Shown piece after piece: positions 7,658 through 57,820 of a stretch of 64,000 nucleotides of DNA; within the stretch, counting starts at the first letter, position 1; the number at the start of each line of letters is the position of its first letter. The notes below the pieces were generated by a model. That model was not told where the DNA came from. It did not search any database and saw only the letters and a list, made by a program, of their open reading frames with translations. The position numbers and the translations under genes were made by a program. Origin of the DNA: Deltaproteobacteria bacterium (GTDB lineage Bacteria; Myxococcota; Myxococcia; Myxococcales; JAHFDP01); the NCBI GenBank assembly GCA_023248955.1, contig JAHFDP010000010.1, positions 1 to 64,000 of the forward strand, given 5' to 3'.

Positions 7658-9066
7658 TGCGCCCCCCGCCCAAGTAAGACAGCAGGAATGGTCCGCAGAA
7701 CCAACTTCAGATCAAGCCACAAACTCCACGAATCAATGTACCGCAGGTCCAACTGCATCCATTCCTCAAATCCAATCTCGCTGCGCCCAGAAACCTGCCA
7801 AAAACAGGTCAGCCCCGGCTTCATCGAGAGCCGCCTCCGCTGCCACCGTTTGTACTGTGCAACCTCGCTGGGAATTGGCGGGCGCGGGCCCACGATGCTC
7901 ATCTCGCCGGCGAAAACGTGCCACAGCTGCGGCAGCTCATCGAGCGACGTCTTGCGCAACGCCGCGCCCACGGCCGTCAAGCGGGGATCGTGGCGAATCT
8001 TAAAAACCGGGCCATCGGCCTCGTTGTGCACAGCGAGCGATGAGCGCTGCGCCTCCGCGTTCAGCACCATCGAGCGAAATTTCAGGAACCAGAACTCGCG
8101 GCCGTTGAGGCCCACGCGGCGTTGGCGAAAGAGCACCGGCCCCGGACTTGACATTTTGACGGCCGCGGCCACCAGCGCGAAAAGCGGCGCCAGGAGCACC
8201 AGCGCCACGCCGGAGAGCACCACGTCGAAGGCGCGTTTGATGGCCAGCGCCCAGGCGTGCGTGGGGACGGTGTCGAAACCGAGTACCGGAATGCCGTCCA
8301 TCTCCTCGAAGGAGAGCCGCGAAAGTTTGTGGGGAAAAAAGTTGAGCACTAGACGAGCTCCGACACCGAGCTCTTCGCAGGTGAGAAAAGCCGGTTCCAG
8401 ATCGTCGAGACGACCGCGCCCCACCGCGAAGATCACTTCGTCGATGACCTGCGTTTCCAAAATAGAAGCGAGGTCGGTAAGCGCCCCGAGCAGCGGGCGG
8501 AGCGGCGCCCCGTCGGGCTCGCTGCCCGCATCGACATACCCCGCCACCACGAGTCCCCACTCCGAATGGCGAGCGATGGTCTGCCCGACCTCCTCCGCCG
8601 CCTCGCCACTTCCCACGATGGCCACCGTGCGCAGCCCCTGCCCTCGCCGGCGTGCGGACCGCACCACCAGCCAGGCCGCCACGCGCACGCCGGTGGTTCC
8701 CAAAAATACCAGCAGCGTAAAAAGTCCGACGAAGACACGCGACACGTCAAGCAAGCGCAGCGCGAACGCCCCCGCGAAAGTGGCCGCACCCACCGTGCAA
8801 GCCACCGAAGCGACGCGGAGGAGATCCAGCGAGACTGGCCGCACACGGCGCGACCGGTAAAACTGGGCCAGTCCTCCACCCACCGACCAGGCCACCAGCG
8901 CAACCGCGACTAACGGCAAGTAGGCGGACAACGGTGCGGCCGCGCGCAAAAACGCCGACGGAAATCGAGCCCGCAAGCCATAAGCGAAAAAAAACGCCGC
9001 GGCCACCGCGACCAAGTCCGCGGCAAACAAAGTTGTCGAGACAACACGGGCGCGCTGGCGCAGCAT
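7654..9066 (-). CDS. polyprenyl glycosylphosphotransferase (sugar-1-P transferase)
   Basis: 470 aa integral membrane enzyme that initiates exopolysaccharide or O-antigen repeat units by moving a sugar-1-phosphate onto undecaprenyl phosphate. Four or five N-terminal membrane helices are followed by a CoA-binding-like Rossmann domain (VAIVGSGEAAEEVG), another membrane helix near 280-310 and the C-terminal catalytic domain. The catalytic domain carries SSPGPVLFRQRRVGLNG, FLKFRSM, KTSLDELPQLWHVFAGEMSIVGPRP and the final LDLKLVLRTI. The donor sugar is not predictable. It lies 46 bp downstream of the fibrinogen-like lipoprotein gene in the same direction. Confidence 0.93.
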   Translation of the reverse strand: MLRQRARVVSTTLFAADLVAVAAAFFFAYGLRARFPSAFLRAAAPLSAYLPLVAVALVAWSVGGGLAQFYRSRRVRPVSLDLLRVASVACTVGAATFAGAFALRLLDVSRVFVGLFTLLVFLGTTGVRVAAWLVVRSARRRGQGLRTVAIVGSGEAAEEVGQTIARHSEWGLVVAGYVDAGSEPDGAPLRPLLGALTDLASILETQVIDEVIFAVGRGRLDDLEPAFLTCEELGVGARLVLNFFPHKLSRLSFEEMDGIPVLGFDTVPTHAWALAIKRAFDVVLSGVALVLLAPLFALVAAAVKMSSPGPVLFRQRRVGLNGREFWFLKFRSMVLNAEAQRSSLAVHNEADGPVFKIRHDPRLTAVGAALRKTSLDELPQLWHVFAGEMSIVGPRPPIPSEVAQYKRWQRRRLSMKPGLTCFWQVSGRSEIGFEEWMQLDLRYIDSWSLWLDLKLVLRTIPAVLLGRGAH

Positions 9067-52023: not shown

Positions 52024-52152
52024 CGGTGCGGTGAATATACGCGCAGCGCGAGGGCAGGCCACGGGGTGACGATGCGCACGTCCTGCGCACGACTTTCATT
52101 GACGCTACCCGCCCACGGGTTCCACCATGCCGACTTTCGAGTTGGGAGATGC

Positions 52153-52812
52153 ATGAAATCCATCGCGCCACTCCTCATGGCCCTCCTTCCAACCACTGCG
52201 CTGGCGCAGACTTATGTGGTCGATCCGGAGGCGGGCAACAGCACCTTCGATGCCGTCTTCGATGCCCCGCTCGGAGAGCGAATCCATGCGGTGAGCTCCG
52301 CCCTCGCTTGCGCCGTCGACTACGACGCCAAGAGCGGCACCGTGAAGGGAAGCTGCAGCGTGCCACTCGTCTCGATCATGGTCGACAACGAACCGACCAA
52401 GACCGAGCATTTTCAGCAGTGGTCCACCAACAAAAAATCGGAACCAAAGGATTGCAAGTTCGAAGCGAATCTCGACGGCGTGAAGCTCGGCGTGCTCCAA
52501 GCGAACAAGTCCGTACCGTTCACCGCGGACGTGCCCTTTATCATCTGTGGGCGCGCGCGCACGGGCGGCGGCAAGGAGAAGCTCGTGGGCAAGGCACTCC
52601 TGCTGCCCGCGGGAAGCGACGGCGAGAAGACAACGGTTCGCGTGCAAGCCACAGTCGCTAAATTCAACCGCGAAAAATATGGCATCGGGCCCGCCTTCAC
52701 CGAAGGCTGGCTGGCACGCGTGCAACAGCTCGCGAAAGTCGTGGCGCCCGAGGGCACGATCGAGCTGCGGCTGTTCGCGCACCCGAAAGAAGAGGCCAGC
52801 GCGAAGAAATGA
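52153..52812 (+). CDS. YceI-like periplasmic protein, first gene of bufferin operon
   Basis: 219 aa. Signal peptide IAPLLMALLPTTALA. The mature start TYVVDPEAGNSTFDAVFDAP resembles the YceI lipocalin-like barrel, which binds polyisoprenoid-type lipids, but the fold match is moderate and the family call is tentative. VSIMVDNEPTKTEHFQQW replaces the usual D..HL segment. Its stop overlaps bufB by ATGA. A role in exporting or receiving the metallophore is inference. Confidence 0.7.
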   Translation: MKSIAPLLMALLPTTALAQTYVVDPEAGNSTFDAVFDAPLGERIHAVSSALACAVDYDAKSGTVKGSCSVPLVSIMVDNEPTKTEHFQQWSTNKKSEPKDCKFEANLDGVKLGVLQANKSVPFTADVPFIICGRARTGGGKEKLVGKALLLPAGSDGEKTTVRVQATVAKFNREKYGIGPAFTEGWLARVQQLAKVVAPEGTIELRLFAHPKEEASAKK

Positions 52813-53636
52813 TTCGTCTCCGGGGACACGGTATCGGTCTACGCGCGCGACATTACGGGCAACTGCTCGACCGCGCGCCGCCGGCGGATTTTGTGGAAGC
52901 GATCAGCGAAAACTTTTTCGCCAAGGGCGGTCGTCCGCTGGCAGTTCTGGAAAAGGTTCGCCGCGACGTTCCCGTGGCGCTCCATGGCGTTTCGCTCTCC
53001 ATCGGGTCGACGGATCCGCTCTCGGAAGACTACCTGCGCGCGCTCTGCACGCTCGTGAACCGCATCGATCCAGCCGTGGTCTCCGATCACTTTTGCTGGG
53101 GCTCGCACGGCGGACGCTACGCGCACGACCTCTGGCCGCTTCCGTATACTGAAGATACTATTATCCATGTCGCAGCGCGCGTGGCTACCGTGCAGGACCG
53201 CTTGCGGCGACGCATCCTGCTCGAGAACGTCTCCAGCTACGTCGGCTTTCAAGCCTCCACCATGCCCGAGTGGGAATTTGTCACGGCGGTTGCGCAACGC
53301 GCCGGCTGCGGCGTGCTGCTCGACATCAACAACATTTACGTCAGCGCGAAAAACCAGGGATTTGAGCCGCGCGATTATCTCAATGGCATTCCGCGGGACG
53401 TTGTCGGGCAGTTCCATCTGGCCGGCCACACGGACAAGGGCAACTACCTGCTCGATTCGCACATCGGGCCGGTGCCGGAATCGGTTTGGAATTTGTACGC
53501 GGCAGCAGTGCAGCGCTTTGGCCCCGTGCCCGCGCTGGTCGAATGGGACGAAGAAGTGCCAGCGCTCGAGGTGCTGGCCGCCGAAGCTCAGCGCGCCGCG
53601 GATGTTGAGGCCGCTGCATTGCGAGAAGCCGCATGA
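52809..53636 (+). CDS. bufB: DUF692 multinuclear non-heme iron oxidase (bufferin maturase)
   Basis: 275 aa. MNIO/DUF692 fold, TIM barrel with a di- or tri-iron site that oxidises Cys of a peptide to thiooxazole-type rings. Metal-ligand regions seen are ALHGVSLSIGS, VSDHFCWGSHGG, ILLENVSSYVGF (Glu), GVLLDINNIYVSA (Asp, Asn), GQFHLAGHTDKG (two His), LVEWDEEVPAL (Glu). All conserved acidic and His positions expected for the family appear present. Starts in the preceding stop (ATGA) and ends in bufC (ATGA). With bufC and a Cys-rich peptide it forms a bufferin cassette. Confidence 0.9.
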   Translation: MIRLRGHGIGLRARHYGQLLDRAPPADFVEAISENFFAKGGRPLAVLEKVRRDVPVALHGVSLSIGSTDPLSEDYLRALCTLVNRIDPAVVSDHFCWGSHGGRYAHDLWPLPYTEDTIIHVAARVATVQDRLRRRILLENVSSYVGFQASTMPEWEFVTAVAQRAGCGVLLDINNIYVSAKNQGFEPRDYLNGIPRDVVGQFHLAGHTDKGNYLLDSHIGPVPESVWNLYAAAVQRFGPVPALVEWDEEVPALEVLAAEAQRAADVEAAALREAA

Positions 53637-54439
53637 CCCTGGAGCTTGCTGCAACGGAGTCGCTTTTTTGGACGGCGGTCACGCGTGGCGAAGTGGCGCC
53701 GGAGGCCGCGCGCCTCTTCACGGATTCGCCCACCTTTTCGACGGACGCTCGGCTGCACGTCTACGCCGACATGTACCGCTTCCGCCTGGTCGATGCGCTG
53801 CGCGCGGACTTTCCGAAGCTCGCGCAGCTCCTGGGCGAGGACGCCTTTTCTTCGCTCGCCGAGGCCTATCTAAAAGCGCATCCTTCGCAGGCGCCGTCGA
53901 TCGCGCATTTCGGTGACTCGCTTTCGTCGTTCCTTCGCGCCCATCCCGGACCGCGCGCAGATTTGGCGGATTTGGCCGAGCTCGAAACGCAACGCAACAC
54001 GGTTTTTTTCGACGAGGATCCGTCGCCGATCAACGCGGACGCACTTCGCGCGCTCGGCGATTCGCTCCCAGAGGCGCAAGTCCGTCTCATTTCAGCGCTG
54101 CGCTTGGTTACGCAAAACCACGACGCGGCTGAAATCTGGAGCGCGCTCGAATCCGGCAAACCCGCGCCCAGCACGGCCGCGCGCCAAACACACGTCGTGA
54201 TCTGGCGCCAAGGATTCGACGTGTTTCACACCAGCATCAACGCGGCCGAAGCCGAATCGGTTGGCCGCGCTATCGGTGGCTGCGCGTTCGCCGCCCTCTG
54301 CGAGCCGTTTGCAGATGCACCCAGCGCCTTCGCGGCCATCAGCGCTTGGGCTGAAGACGGCTGGATTTCCACTTGTAGTCCCCAGCGTCCCACCGTGGGC
54401 CGCCGGTCAACCCGCAACAAACGAGGAAGCGCGCAATGA
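53633..54439 (+). CDS. bufC: DUF2063 bufferin partner protein
   Basis: 268 aa. DUF2063 is the usual partner of DUF692 maturases and is thought to bind the precursor peptide. The N-terminal domain is visible as LHVYADMYRFRLVDALRADFPKLAQLLGEDAF followed by AEAYLKAHPS. The second half (LVTQNHDAAEIW, HVVIWRQGFDVFHTSINAAEA) holds the C-terminal beta domain. Earlier predictions as DNA-binding are not needed here. It is coupled both ways by ATGA overlaps. Confidence 0.88.
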   Translation: MTLELAATESLFWTAVTRGEVAPEAARLFTDSPTFSTDARLHVYADMYRFRLVDALRADFPKLAQLLGEDAFSSLAEAYLKAHPSQAPSIAHFGDSLSSFLRAHPGPRADLADLAELETQRNTVFFDEDPSPINADALRALGDSLPEAQVRLISALRLVTQNHDAAEIWSALESGKPAPSTAARQTHVVIWRQGFDVFHTSINAAEAESVGRAIGGCAFAALCEPFADAPSAFAAISAWAEDGWISTCSPQRPTVGRRSTRNKRGSAQ

Positions 54440-54708
54440 CGAAGTCAACGATGAAGGGCGCCGTGATCGCATCCGCGGTAGCGTCGCTGTTTGCCACCAC
54501 GCCCGCTCAGGCAAAGGCGCAAAAGGGCCGCATCAAAGCGGGCGATGCCGTGGTGAAGTGCAGCGGCGTCAACGAGTGCAAGGGCAAGGGCTCCTGTTCG
54601 GGCGCCGACAACACGTGCAAGGCCAAGAATGAGTGCAAGGGCAAGGGCTGGATCGAGGTCGGTACGAAAGCGTGCGCCGATCAGGGCGGCAAGGTCGTCA
54701 AGACGTAG
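54436..54708 (+). CDS. bufA: bufferin-type metallophore precursor peptide
   Basis: 90 aa. Signal peptide (residues 1-26, FATTPAQA) and a Lys-rich core with six Cys at 42, 48, 54, 61, 67 and 80: CSGVNECKGKGSC, CKAKNECKGKGW, then a final Cys. The repeated NECKGKG is characteristic of BufA2/DUF2282-type bufferins, whose Cys are oxidised by the DUF692 enzyme and then chelate copper in the periplasm. Here the precursor is last in the operon, whereas it usually comes first. A strong terminator follows. Confidence 0.9.
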   Translation: MTKSTMKGAVIASAVASLFATTPAQAKAQKGRIKAGDAVVKCSGVNECKGKGSCSGADNTCKAKNECKGKGWIEVGTKACADQGGKVVKT

Positions 54709-54726
54709 TTCGTGTTGCCGCACAAG

Positions 54727-54767
54727 AGCCGGCGCTGTCCGATGAGACGGCGCCGGCTTTGTTTTTT
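54727..54767 (+). terminator. strong rho-independent terminator of the bufferin operon
   Basis: A long stem AGCCGGCGC-T-GTC pairs with GAC-G-GCGCCGGCT across a 6-base loop, then TTGTTTTTT. It ends the operon and separates it from the ECF sigma gene 93 bp later. Confidence 0.92.
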
Positions 54768-54859: not shown

Positions 54860-55348
54860 GTGGAAGAAGCAGCGCTGGCGTCCCTCTACGAACGCTATGG
54901 CTACCTCGTCCATCGACGCTGTCTGGCGCTCGTGAAAAACCGCGCGGACGCTGACGACGCGCTTCAGGAGGTCTTCATGCGCGTTCAACGGTACGGCCAG
55001 TCCAAGACAGAGGCATCGGCGCTGCAGTGGCTCTACACCATCGCTCGCAACTGCTGTTTCGATCTCATGACCAAACGAGGTCGCGAACAACCGGGACACG
55101 AGGAAGATGTCGCCGCAGCGGATGTCCGCAGTCACGGCGATCCCACCGACGGCGATCGCCGCGCCTTGCTCGGCGTGGTGCTCCAAACGCTTGATGCAAA
55201 GACGCGCGAGATTGGCGTCCTCCATCACCTGGACGGATTCACGCAGGAGGAGGTCGCCGTGCGCACGGGGTATTCGCGCAAGACCGTGGGGAAGAAGCTA
55301 CAGGTCTTCGAAGAGGCGATCCGCCAGCGCTTTGCCGAGGGGAGTTGA
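54860..55348 (+). CDS. ECF sigma factor
   Basis: 162 aa. Region 2 (LYERYGYLVHRRCLALVKNRADADDALQEVF) and region 4 (LHHLDGFTQEEVAVRTGYSRKTVGKKLQVF) are intact, with LQWLYTIARNCCFDLM between. A GTG start follows GCGAGGAG. Three Fur-like palindromes begin at its stop codon, and its target operon is probably the downstream anti-sigma/caspase pair and perhaps others. ECF factors of this type occur beside caspase/DUF4384 genes in myxobacteria-like genomes. Confidence 0.9.
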   Translation: MEEAALASLYERYGYLVHRRCLALVKNRADADDALQEVFMRVQRYGQSKTEASALQWLYTIARNCCFDLMTKRGREQPGHEEDVAAADVRSHGDPTDGDRRALLGVVLQTLDAKTREIGVLHHLDGFTQEEVAVRTGYSRKTVGKKLQVFEEAIRQRFAEGS

Positions 55349-55370
55349 GAATGAGAATGATTTTCAATTT
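55345..55370. promoter_or_regulatory. Fur-box-like palindrome 1
   Basis: TTGAGAATGAGAATGATTTTCAA contains the 7-1-7 pattern TGAGAAT-G-ATTTTCA (55352-55366), close to the Fur heptamer TGATAAT/ATTATCA. It overlaps the sigma gene stop codon. Confidence 0.6.
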
Positions 55371-55413
55371 CACGGTGACGCCAGGGCGAGCAGCCCCGCG
55401 GCCACCGTGCACC

Positions 55414-55443
55414 GATAATGATAATAATTCTCATTATCATTGG
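55414..55443. promoter_or_regulatory. Fur-box-like palindrome 2 (best match)
   Basis: GATAATGATAATAATTCTCA and the following ATTATCATT match the classic GATAATGATAATCATTATC Fur box. AATGATAAT (55417-55425) and ATTATCATT (55433-55441) form a perfect 9-bp inverted repeat across 7 bp. It is striking AT-rich sequence in a GC-rich region. Confidence 0.75.
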
Positions 55444-55513
55444 CCGACTCAGATAGGGACATCGACGTTGACCTCGACTGCGGCAGCGACCTCGAGCTGC
55501 ACCACCGGAAAGC

Positions 55514-55539
55514 GAGAATGAGAATGACTCTCATTTTCA
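55514..55539. promoter_or_regulatory. Fur-box-like palindrome 3, over the anti-sigma start
   Basis: AATGAGA (55517-55523) and TCTCATT (55529-55535) are a perfect inverted repeat, forming TGAGAATGACTCTCA. It overlaps the likely ATG start codons (55518 and 55524), so protein binding would block both transcription and leader access. Confidence 0.6.
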
Positions 55540-56261
55540 AGCGCGGCACGGATTGCCCGCCAGCGACGATCTTGGAGGAGACATTGGCTGGCGAATCAGC
55601 TCCGGCCTGGGTCAGCCACATCGCTGGATGTGACACTTGCGGCGGCTACCTGAACGCCCTGGCCGAGGAGCAGCGATCCTTCCTGGCCCAGCGGCCACCA
55701 GAGCTCTTCGTGCGGCAAGTCGCACGGCGGGGCGCGGCGAACCGGCAGCCGCGACGCTGGTGGAAGCTGGCGACGGGTCTCGTCGCCGCGGCCGCTGCGG
55801 TGATTTTGATTCCCACTCTCATTCTCAAATCCGGCGACGACGTCCGCACCAAAGGATCCGCGCCCTTTCACGTTTTTTACAAACGCGGCGCCAGCGAACC
55901 GGCCGCGCTTGTCCCGGACACGCATCTTCGCGCCGGCGACCTGCTTCGTTTTTCCTACCGCGCCAATTCCGACGGATACTTGGCCATCATGGATCTCGAC
56001 GGTGCCGGAAAGGTCACTCCATTTTTCCCTTTTGGTGGCGAGCGATCGGCAGCGCTGCACGCCGGTGAATCCACGCTACCTGGCAGCGTCACGCTCGACA
56101 CCGCACCCGGTCCCGAGTGGCTCGTGGCCATCTTCAGCACCACGCCGTTTGAGATCGCGCCGATCGCCGCTCAGCTCCACGCACATGCGCCGGGGCTCGC
56201 TGTCGAGGTCACCTGCGACGGCTGCAAAGTCGAAACCCTGCGCTTCGAAAAGTCGCCCTGA
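55518..56261 (+). CDS. anti-sigma factor with DUF4384 domain
   Basis: 247 aa from the ATG at 55518 (GGAAAG upstream; TTG at 55440 and ATG at 55524 are alternatives). The cytosolic N-terminus has HIAGCDTCGGYL, a zinc-type HxxxCxxC as in ZAS anti-sigma factors. One membrane helix (LATGLVAAAAAVILIPTLIL, about 95-115) leads to an outside DUF4384 domain (LLRFSYRANSDGYLAIMDLD, VTPFFPFGGERS). It would hold the ECF sigma until a periplasmic signal. Its stop overlaps the next ATG by one base. Confidence 0.82.
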   Translation: MRMTLIFKRGTDCPPATILEETLAGESAPAWVSHIAGCDTCGGYLNALAEEQRSFLAQRPPELFVRQVARRGAANRQPRRWWKLATGLVAAAAAVILIPTLILKSGDDVRTKGSAPFHVFYKRGASEPAALVPDTHLRAGDLLRFSYRANSDGYLAIMDLDGAGKVTPFFPFGGERSAALHAGESTLPGSVTLDTAPGPEWLVAIFSTTPFEIAPIAAQLHAHAPGLAVEVTCDGCKVETLRFEKSP

Positions 56262-57820
56262 TGCGCGCCGCCCTGCTCGCGCTGCTGGTTTCGGTTGCCG
56301 CGCACGCGGAGCCGCCGGCTATCCGCCTCTTCGTCGCCATCGCCAGCAACATCGGCGATCCCGAAGATCCGCCGCTCCACTTCGCCGACGCCGATGCCCG
56401 CCGCGCGCTGACACTCTTCGTCGACATCGGCAAGGTCGCTCCCGAGCGCGCTTACCTCGTGGTCGGCCAGCCAGCCAACGTGGTGCGCGAGAAGCTCGCC
56501 GAAGTGGCCGGCCGCATCGCCGAGCTGCGCGCCGCCGGGAGCGACGTGGTGCTGCTCCTCTATGTCTCCGGCCACGCCAAGGCCGGCGTGCTGCACCTCT
56601 CCGGCACGCACCTGCCGCTGGCCGAGCTTCGCGACTTCGCCGAAAAAACTGGCGCCCGCCTGCGCGTCCTCGTCATCGACGCCTGCGACAGCGGCGCCAT
56701 CCTCCGCCAAAAAGGTGGCGCGCCCGGGCCCGAATACGACGTCTCCCTCGAGCAATTGCCGCTTTCCGGCCAAGTTGTCATTTCCTCAAGTGGCCCCGCG
56801 GAGCCGTCGCAGGAGTGGGATGCACTCGGCGGATCGCTCTTCACACACCACCTGCTCACTGGCCTGCGCGGCGACGCAGATACTGAAAATATTGGCCGTG
56901 TCACGCTCTCGGAAGCGTACGCTTATGCGTACCGCCGCACCGTGGTGGAAGCCGCGAAGGGCACGCAGCATCCGGCGTTCGACTTCGATCTGCGCGGCGC
57001 GGGCGATCTCGTCCTCTCCGAACCCGGCGCCGCGCACGCCGCGCTAATCTTCCCCGCGGCGCTCGACGGCCGCTACGTGGTCGCCAGCCAGCCGCGCCCC
57101 GACGTGGTCGCGGAAATCGAAAAACACGCCGGCCGTGCGCTACGCCTCGCCGTTCCGCCGGGCCGCTACCTGATTCGCAAATGGATGGGCGCCAGCGTGG
57201 GCCTCCTCTCGATGGAGCTGCCCTACGGCGGCGAAGCCACGGTCCGCGAGTCTGACATGGTGCGCCGCCACTTCGCGGATGTGGTCGCCAAAGGCGGAAC
57301 GATCGAGCTCACCCCGAGCGCCGTTTTCCTCTCGGCCACGCTTGCCACGTCACCACTCACCGGCACCGGCCCACGCTGGAATGTCGGCGTCGGTCTCCGC
57401 CAAACCTGGGGCGAATATTGGGCCACGGCCACTGCGTCCTACGGCCACACCCACTTTCGTGGCGAGTCGATCTTCGTGAATGAAAATGCCGCCGCGTTTT
57501 CCCTTGCCGGCGGCATGCGTTTCTTTTGGTCCGCATTCATTCCTTATTTGGGAATCGCCGTTGATATCACCGGCATTCGCCAAAATTTCGTACGCGATAA
57601 CGAAGCAACCATCGAGCGCGTCTTCGGCGGCGGGCCGTTGCCGATTCGCGCGGGGGTCGGCGTGGCACTCGCACCCGTTCTGGGCTTGGAGATTCCGCTG
57701 CCGCTCCGGGCGTTCGTGGACGTCGAAGCCAAGCCCGCCGTCCGTTATCTCCACGCCGAGGGTCAGTCCGATTTCTCACTCGGGATATCCGGGCAACTTG
57801 CGCTGGGTTTTCGTTATTAG
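56261..57820 (+). CDS. exported caspase-like protease with C-terminal beta-barrel-type domain
   Basis: 519 aa. Signal peptide MRAALLALLVSVAAHA. Residues 20-250 form a peptidase C14 (caspase/metacaspase) domain with the dyad His105 (LLLYVSGHAKAG) and Cys142 (LVIDACDSGA), plus SSSGPAEPSQEWDALGGSLFTHHLL. A middle beta domain (RALRLAVPPGRYLIRKWMG) follows. The last 150 residues alternate strands with aromatic girdles (PRWNVGVGLRQTWGEYWATA to SLGISGQLALGFRY) and end in an aromatic residue, as outer-membrane barrel proteins do. The caspase would face the periplasm or exterior. It is third in the ECF operon. Confidence 0.85.
   Translation: MRAALLALLVSVAAHAEPPAIRLFVAIASNIGDPEDPPLHFADADARRALTLFVDIGKVAPERAYLVVGQPANVVREKLAEVAGRIAELRAAGSDVVLLLYVSGHAKAGVLHLSGTHLPLAELRDFAEKTGARLRVLVIDACDSGAILRQKGGAPGPEYDVSLEQLPLSGQVVISSSGPAEPSQEWDALGGSLFTHHLLTGLRGDADTENIGRVTLSEAYAYAYRRTVVEAAKGTQHPAFDFDLRGAGDLVLSEPGAAHAALIFPAALDGRYVVASQPRPDVVAEIEKHAGRALRLAVPPGRYLIRKWMGASVGLLSMELPYGGEATVRESDMVRRHFADVVAKGGTIELTPSAVFLSATLATSPLTGTGPRWNVGVGLRQTWGEYWATATASYGHTHFRGESIFVNENAAAFSLAGGMRFFWSAFIPYLGIAVDITGIRQNFVRDNEATIERVFGGGPLPIRAGVGVALAPVLGLEIPLPLRAFVDVEAKPAVRYLHAEGQSDFSLGISGQLALGFRY

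Follow-up and report, generated by a model that had tools for sequence, protein, structure and literature searches.

The bufABC gene order is described as strict (Antoine et al. 2025, PMC12452194). A different order is followed by four forward-strand genes at positions 52153-54708 of the DNA analyzed here (a stretch of 64,000 nucleotides from a myxobacterial relative, referred to as the window), which run Y-bufB-bufC-bufA. The locus raises two questions: what an exported YceI-like protein contributes at the head of such an operon, and whether a precursor gene in last place is expressed at a lower dose, as a preliminary description had supposed. The coordinates given in that description, and the chaining of the genes by an ATGA overlap at all three junctions, were confirmed, and the following features were located.

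52063..52152, no strand assigned: 90 bp separating the operon from a divergent PMT-family gene, where its promoter is presumed to lie (from position only)
52153..52812, forward strand: Y, exported protein of 219 aa with a predicted YceI (lipocalin-like) fold (AlphaFold model, structure matches, alignment)
52809..53636, forward strand: BufB, MNIO (DUF692/PF05114) bufferin maturase (NF050167, PF05114)
53633..54439, forward strand: BufC, DUF2063 partner protein, PME type 1 (PF09836)
54436..54708, forward strand: BufA, encoded last in the operon, six-Cys precursor of the BufA2 family with a Sec-type signal peptide (NF050166 and sequence)
54725..54760, forward strand: operon terminator, a 15-pair hairpin with GTTTTTT behind it, 3' of bufA as in relatives (folding z)

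Gene content of the operon

BufB scored 359.5 bits against NF050167 (MNIO_BufB, cut-off 310) and 345 bits against PF05114, identifying it as an MNIO bufferin maturase. BufC matched PF09836 (DUF2063) at 67.4 bits, above the Pfam gathering score of 27.2, and is an MNIO partner of PME type 1; with the HvfC equivalog it reached only 39.5 bits, below the threshold of 142. BufA scored 73.8 bits against NF050166 (BufA2, cut-off 60) and, by inspection, carries the six Cys and the Sec-type signal peptide of a bufferin 2 precursor. With BufA and BufB above curated NCBIfam cut-offs and PF09836 found in BufC, the proposal of a four-gene bufferin-type operon was upheld. The operon is a genuine four-gene set for a copper-binding modified peptide, the chemistry and copper function of which we infer. 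No second BufB or BufA2 scored above cut-off in the rest of the genome. A promoter scan of the gap upstream of Y found no sigma-70 consensus, and an Rfam search gave no match.

The window shares with bufferin 2 operons (BufA2/Buf_6-12Cys, bufABC, optional DoxX; PMC12452194) a six-Cys BufA2, an MNIO, a DUF2063 partner and a tight operon structure, but differs in having bufA last, a gene of predicted YceI fold first and no DoxX within the four-gene operon. As in the operons for bufferin 1, oxazolin and fontiphorin (the 'captophorins', PMC13097082), an MNIO is paired with a DUF2063 partner and a Cys-rich copper-binding product is expected, whereas the precursor in the window comes from another family (neither DUF2282 nor EGKCG). 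By analogy with these products (PMC13097082, PMC12452194), BufB with BufC would oxidize BufA Cys residues to thiooxazoles in the cytoplasm, and the modified peptide, exported by Sec, would chelate copper in the periplasm.

In an Anaeromyxobacter-family locus (L017, oriented 8219-8446), BufA is missing an internal stretch flanked by two NxCKGKG repeats and retains only three Cys, as if shortened through recombination between the repeats. Downstream of the operon in the window, genes for an ECF sigma factor, a DUF4384 protein (N-terminus possibly of zinc-finger type; membrane segment) and a caspase-domain protein lie in a row at 54860-57820 and appear to form a regulatory or stress module of their own. 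The sigma gene was rejected as a part of the bufferin system because the terminator intervenes and because it differs from the sigma genes near relatives' operons. ECF sigma genes adjoin Myxococcota BufA2 operons at L092:8590-10244, L100:4358-5601 (where the gene comes with NrsF) and L095:3255-4135, and follow bufC in L072, L074 and L077, with Pfam applied to L092 and L100 only; the published survey places sigma/NrsF genes with Buf1 operons and not with Buf2 (PMC12452194).

Fold, linkage and possible role of Y

Y gave no Pfam or NCBIfam match. The YceI family model (PF04264), assessed against its gathering cut-off, did not hit Y even at E=10, and a sequence search of the PDB returned nothing useful. 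The AlphaFold model of Y (pLDDT 84.8, pTM 0.77) matched 14 PDB entries at E of 0.001 or below, every one a YceI or polyisoprenoid-binding protein, the best (3hpe, 5ixg and 1y0g) at E about 1e-7 with target-normalized TM of 0.70-0.76; a YceI-type lipocalin barrel is the predicted fold. A profile built from eight Y proteins matched classical Myxococcaceae YceI at E 1e-5 to 1e-10, and three of these proteins, when tested, carried PF04264 at 73-80 bits. The structure matches and the reach of the profile therefore point to Y as a diverged YceI-fold relative beyond the Pfam model, and the earlier label 'YceI-like' stands at the level of fold but not of Pfam membership. Y resembles E. coli YceI, BcnA/BcnB and H. 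pylori HP1286 in predicted fold and export, but differs in the lack of a detectable PF04264 signature and in the presence of four invariant Cys (53, 68, 101 and 132 in an alignment of 12 homologues), modeled in or beside strands of the folded barrel. Cys residues are absent altogether from the YceI examined in Myxococcaceae (L116, L120). This difference, together with the divergence from Pfam YceI, suggests that the ligand of Y may differ.

The proposed linkage of a YceI-like gene to bufferin genes was borne out by a synteny survey of relatives. Twelve further Myxococcota loci (L013-L018, L020, L021, L071, L073, L097 and L100) have Y immediately upstream of bufA-bufB, always as Y-A-B(-C), with bufC behind wherever the contig extends far enough; in L073 the Y gene is fragmented close to where the contig stops, and a further Y locus (L101) is truncated by the edge of its contig. 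A published survey of MNIO operons found extra conserved genes to be extremely rare and makes no mention of YceI (PMC12452194), and our literature search found no paper combining YceI with MNIO. As far as the literature was searched, Y is a conserved lipid-binding-type extra gene new to such operons.

A second YceI-MNIO association, with a different MNIO operon type, was found in Myxococcaceae. Eighteen of the 21 best Y-profile matches among their YceI proteins are encoded about 430-550 bp upstream of a same-strand MNIO gene (two lie elsewhere and one at a contig end), and the profile picked the MNIO-linked gene in 6/6 genomes with 4-6 YceI genes each; these genomes are related, so the linkages are not independent events. 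Between YceI and MNIO lies a short Cys-bearing lipoprotein-like gene in L115, L116 and L120, and a row of classical YceI, such a gene (with EGSCG/EGKCG-type ends) and MNIO was noted in L115-L131.

Polyisoprenoids and ubiquinone-8 are known ligands of YceI lipocalins, one of which, BcnA, guards against lipid peroxyl radicals (PMC9113575). BcnA is encoded with cytochrome b561, whereas Y is encoded with an MNIO system. By analogy, Y most likely carries a lipid or quinone and would limit copper-driven membrane damage beside the metallophore; we judge the chances about even that it is a membrane-protective helper under copper stress. The main rival to this role makes Y a passenger in the operon: a lipocalin for envelope stress in general, placed on a copper-induced promoter in common with the bufferin genes and otherwise functionally unconnected to them. 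About 23 of the collected A-B(-C) operons indeed lack Y, and because Y stands without an adjoining buf gene in three loci (L019, L099 and L102), its role extends beyond bufferin. Its linkage nevertheless spans several families, and the second MNIO operon type also comes with a related YceI, so that we regard a mere passenger as unlikely, if still a serious competitor. Elsewhere, an intact Y is followed by a 3' bufC remnant, with bufA and bufB gone (L090:5980-7127), a decayed operon in which Y was retained. A replacement of DoxX by Y was considered and rejected, as DoxX follows bufC in 5/23 operons lacking Y versus 0/12 with Y, a difference that is not significant (Fisher p 0.14).

Position of bufA and the hairpin behind it

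Gene order was surveyed in Myxococcota and in plasmid records. Among 38 Myxococcota places where BufA2 and BufB matches fall on the same contig and strand, bufA lies upstream of bufB in 37 (immediately in 36, 2.4 kb off in one) and downstream in the window alone. Plasmid records listing both genes have bufA upstream in 14/14, with coordinates compared by eye. The suspicion that a precursor-last order is abnormal was thus well founded. As for the suggested variant with a YceI-like gene first and bufA last, the first half recurs elsewhere and only the displaced bufA is particular to this locus. Given the near-universal order in relatives, the change ran from A-first to A-last, and the latter is derived and unique to the window among the relatives examined.

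A mosaic origin, in which bufB and bufC came from an operon of A-B-C-DoxX type and were inserted between Y and bufA, would explain the order. The BufB and BufA trees do place the window differently: BufB clusters with mostly DoxX-carrying operons (87/90; 96/90 for the sister L052), and Y and BufA are nearest Y-type operons by path. In AU tests, however, the BufA data do not reject grouping the window with the DoxX-rich group of BufB (p 0.46), and the BufC data give no clear placement. With BufB suggestive and no support from AU tests, an origin of this kind was not accepted from the gene trees, and we hold it to be improbable. Far less probable still is that BufB modifies Y as a protein substrate. 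Y occupies the usual place of the precursor directly before bufB, has a signal peptide besides its invariant Cys, and MNIOs have been argued to modify long exported proteins (Antoine et al. 2025, PMC12452194); against this, those Cys are predicted to belong to the folded barrel, their counterparts are lacking in the Myxococcaceae YceI examined, Y has no BufA-like motif, and bufA is still there. Misplacement of bufA by the assembler is scarcely credible: the order rests on one genome, a draft assembly in 116 contigs, but the three ATGA junctions are intact with complete gene ends and the terminator lies directly 3' of bufA.

We favor relocation of bufA together with the hairpin behind it. Folding of 80 nt around stop codons was compared with dinucleotide shuffles. 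At the bufA stop of operons with an A-B gap of at least 40 nt, mean z was -3.25 in ten Y operons and -2.26 in fourteen operons without Y, and control means (after Y, B or C; inside B) ranged from -0.1 to 0.4. A long U-tract is missing from most of the relatives' bufA hairpins. The window has a single such hairpin, 3' of bufA (z -4.1), and there it comes with GTTTTTT. Most simply, bufA and the hairpin would act as a unit. Among relatives, the hairpin may terminate or stabilize a short, plentiful mRNA of Y and bufA, and it probably keeps bufA transcripts more numerous than those of bufBC. In the window, the pair sits behind bufC instead of before bufB, and the hairpin closes the whole transcript.

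Shine-Dalgarno pairing was -5.9 kcal/mol for bufA, -5.8 for bufB and -3.0 for bufC, and, of the four genes, bufA has the most weakly folded start region. Since the hairpin is still behind bufA and its ribosome site is no worse than those of bufB and bufC, a lower precursor dose is not safely predicted from last position, and the earlier expectation that this position must lower it was not supported. Protection of the 3' end may offset the last position of bufA.

Overall reading and implications

Collectively, the locus is probably a bufferin-2 (BufA2) copper-buffering RiPP operon with an exported partner of YceI fold and a relocated bufA plus hairpin. More tentatively, and at somewhat less than even chances, YceI lipocalins may be an overlooked component of MNIO copper-peptide systems in Myxococcota, tying the metallophore to protection of membrane quinones or lipids and possibly replacing DoxX, with the move of bufA and its hairpin having rewired dosage. 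The displaced bufA and hairpin would offer a natural experiment on how the precursor-to-enzyme ratio is set in RiPP operons, and a conserved lipocalin partner would make it possible to test whether copper sequestration is tied to membrane protection.
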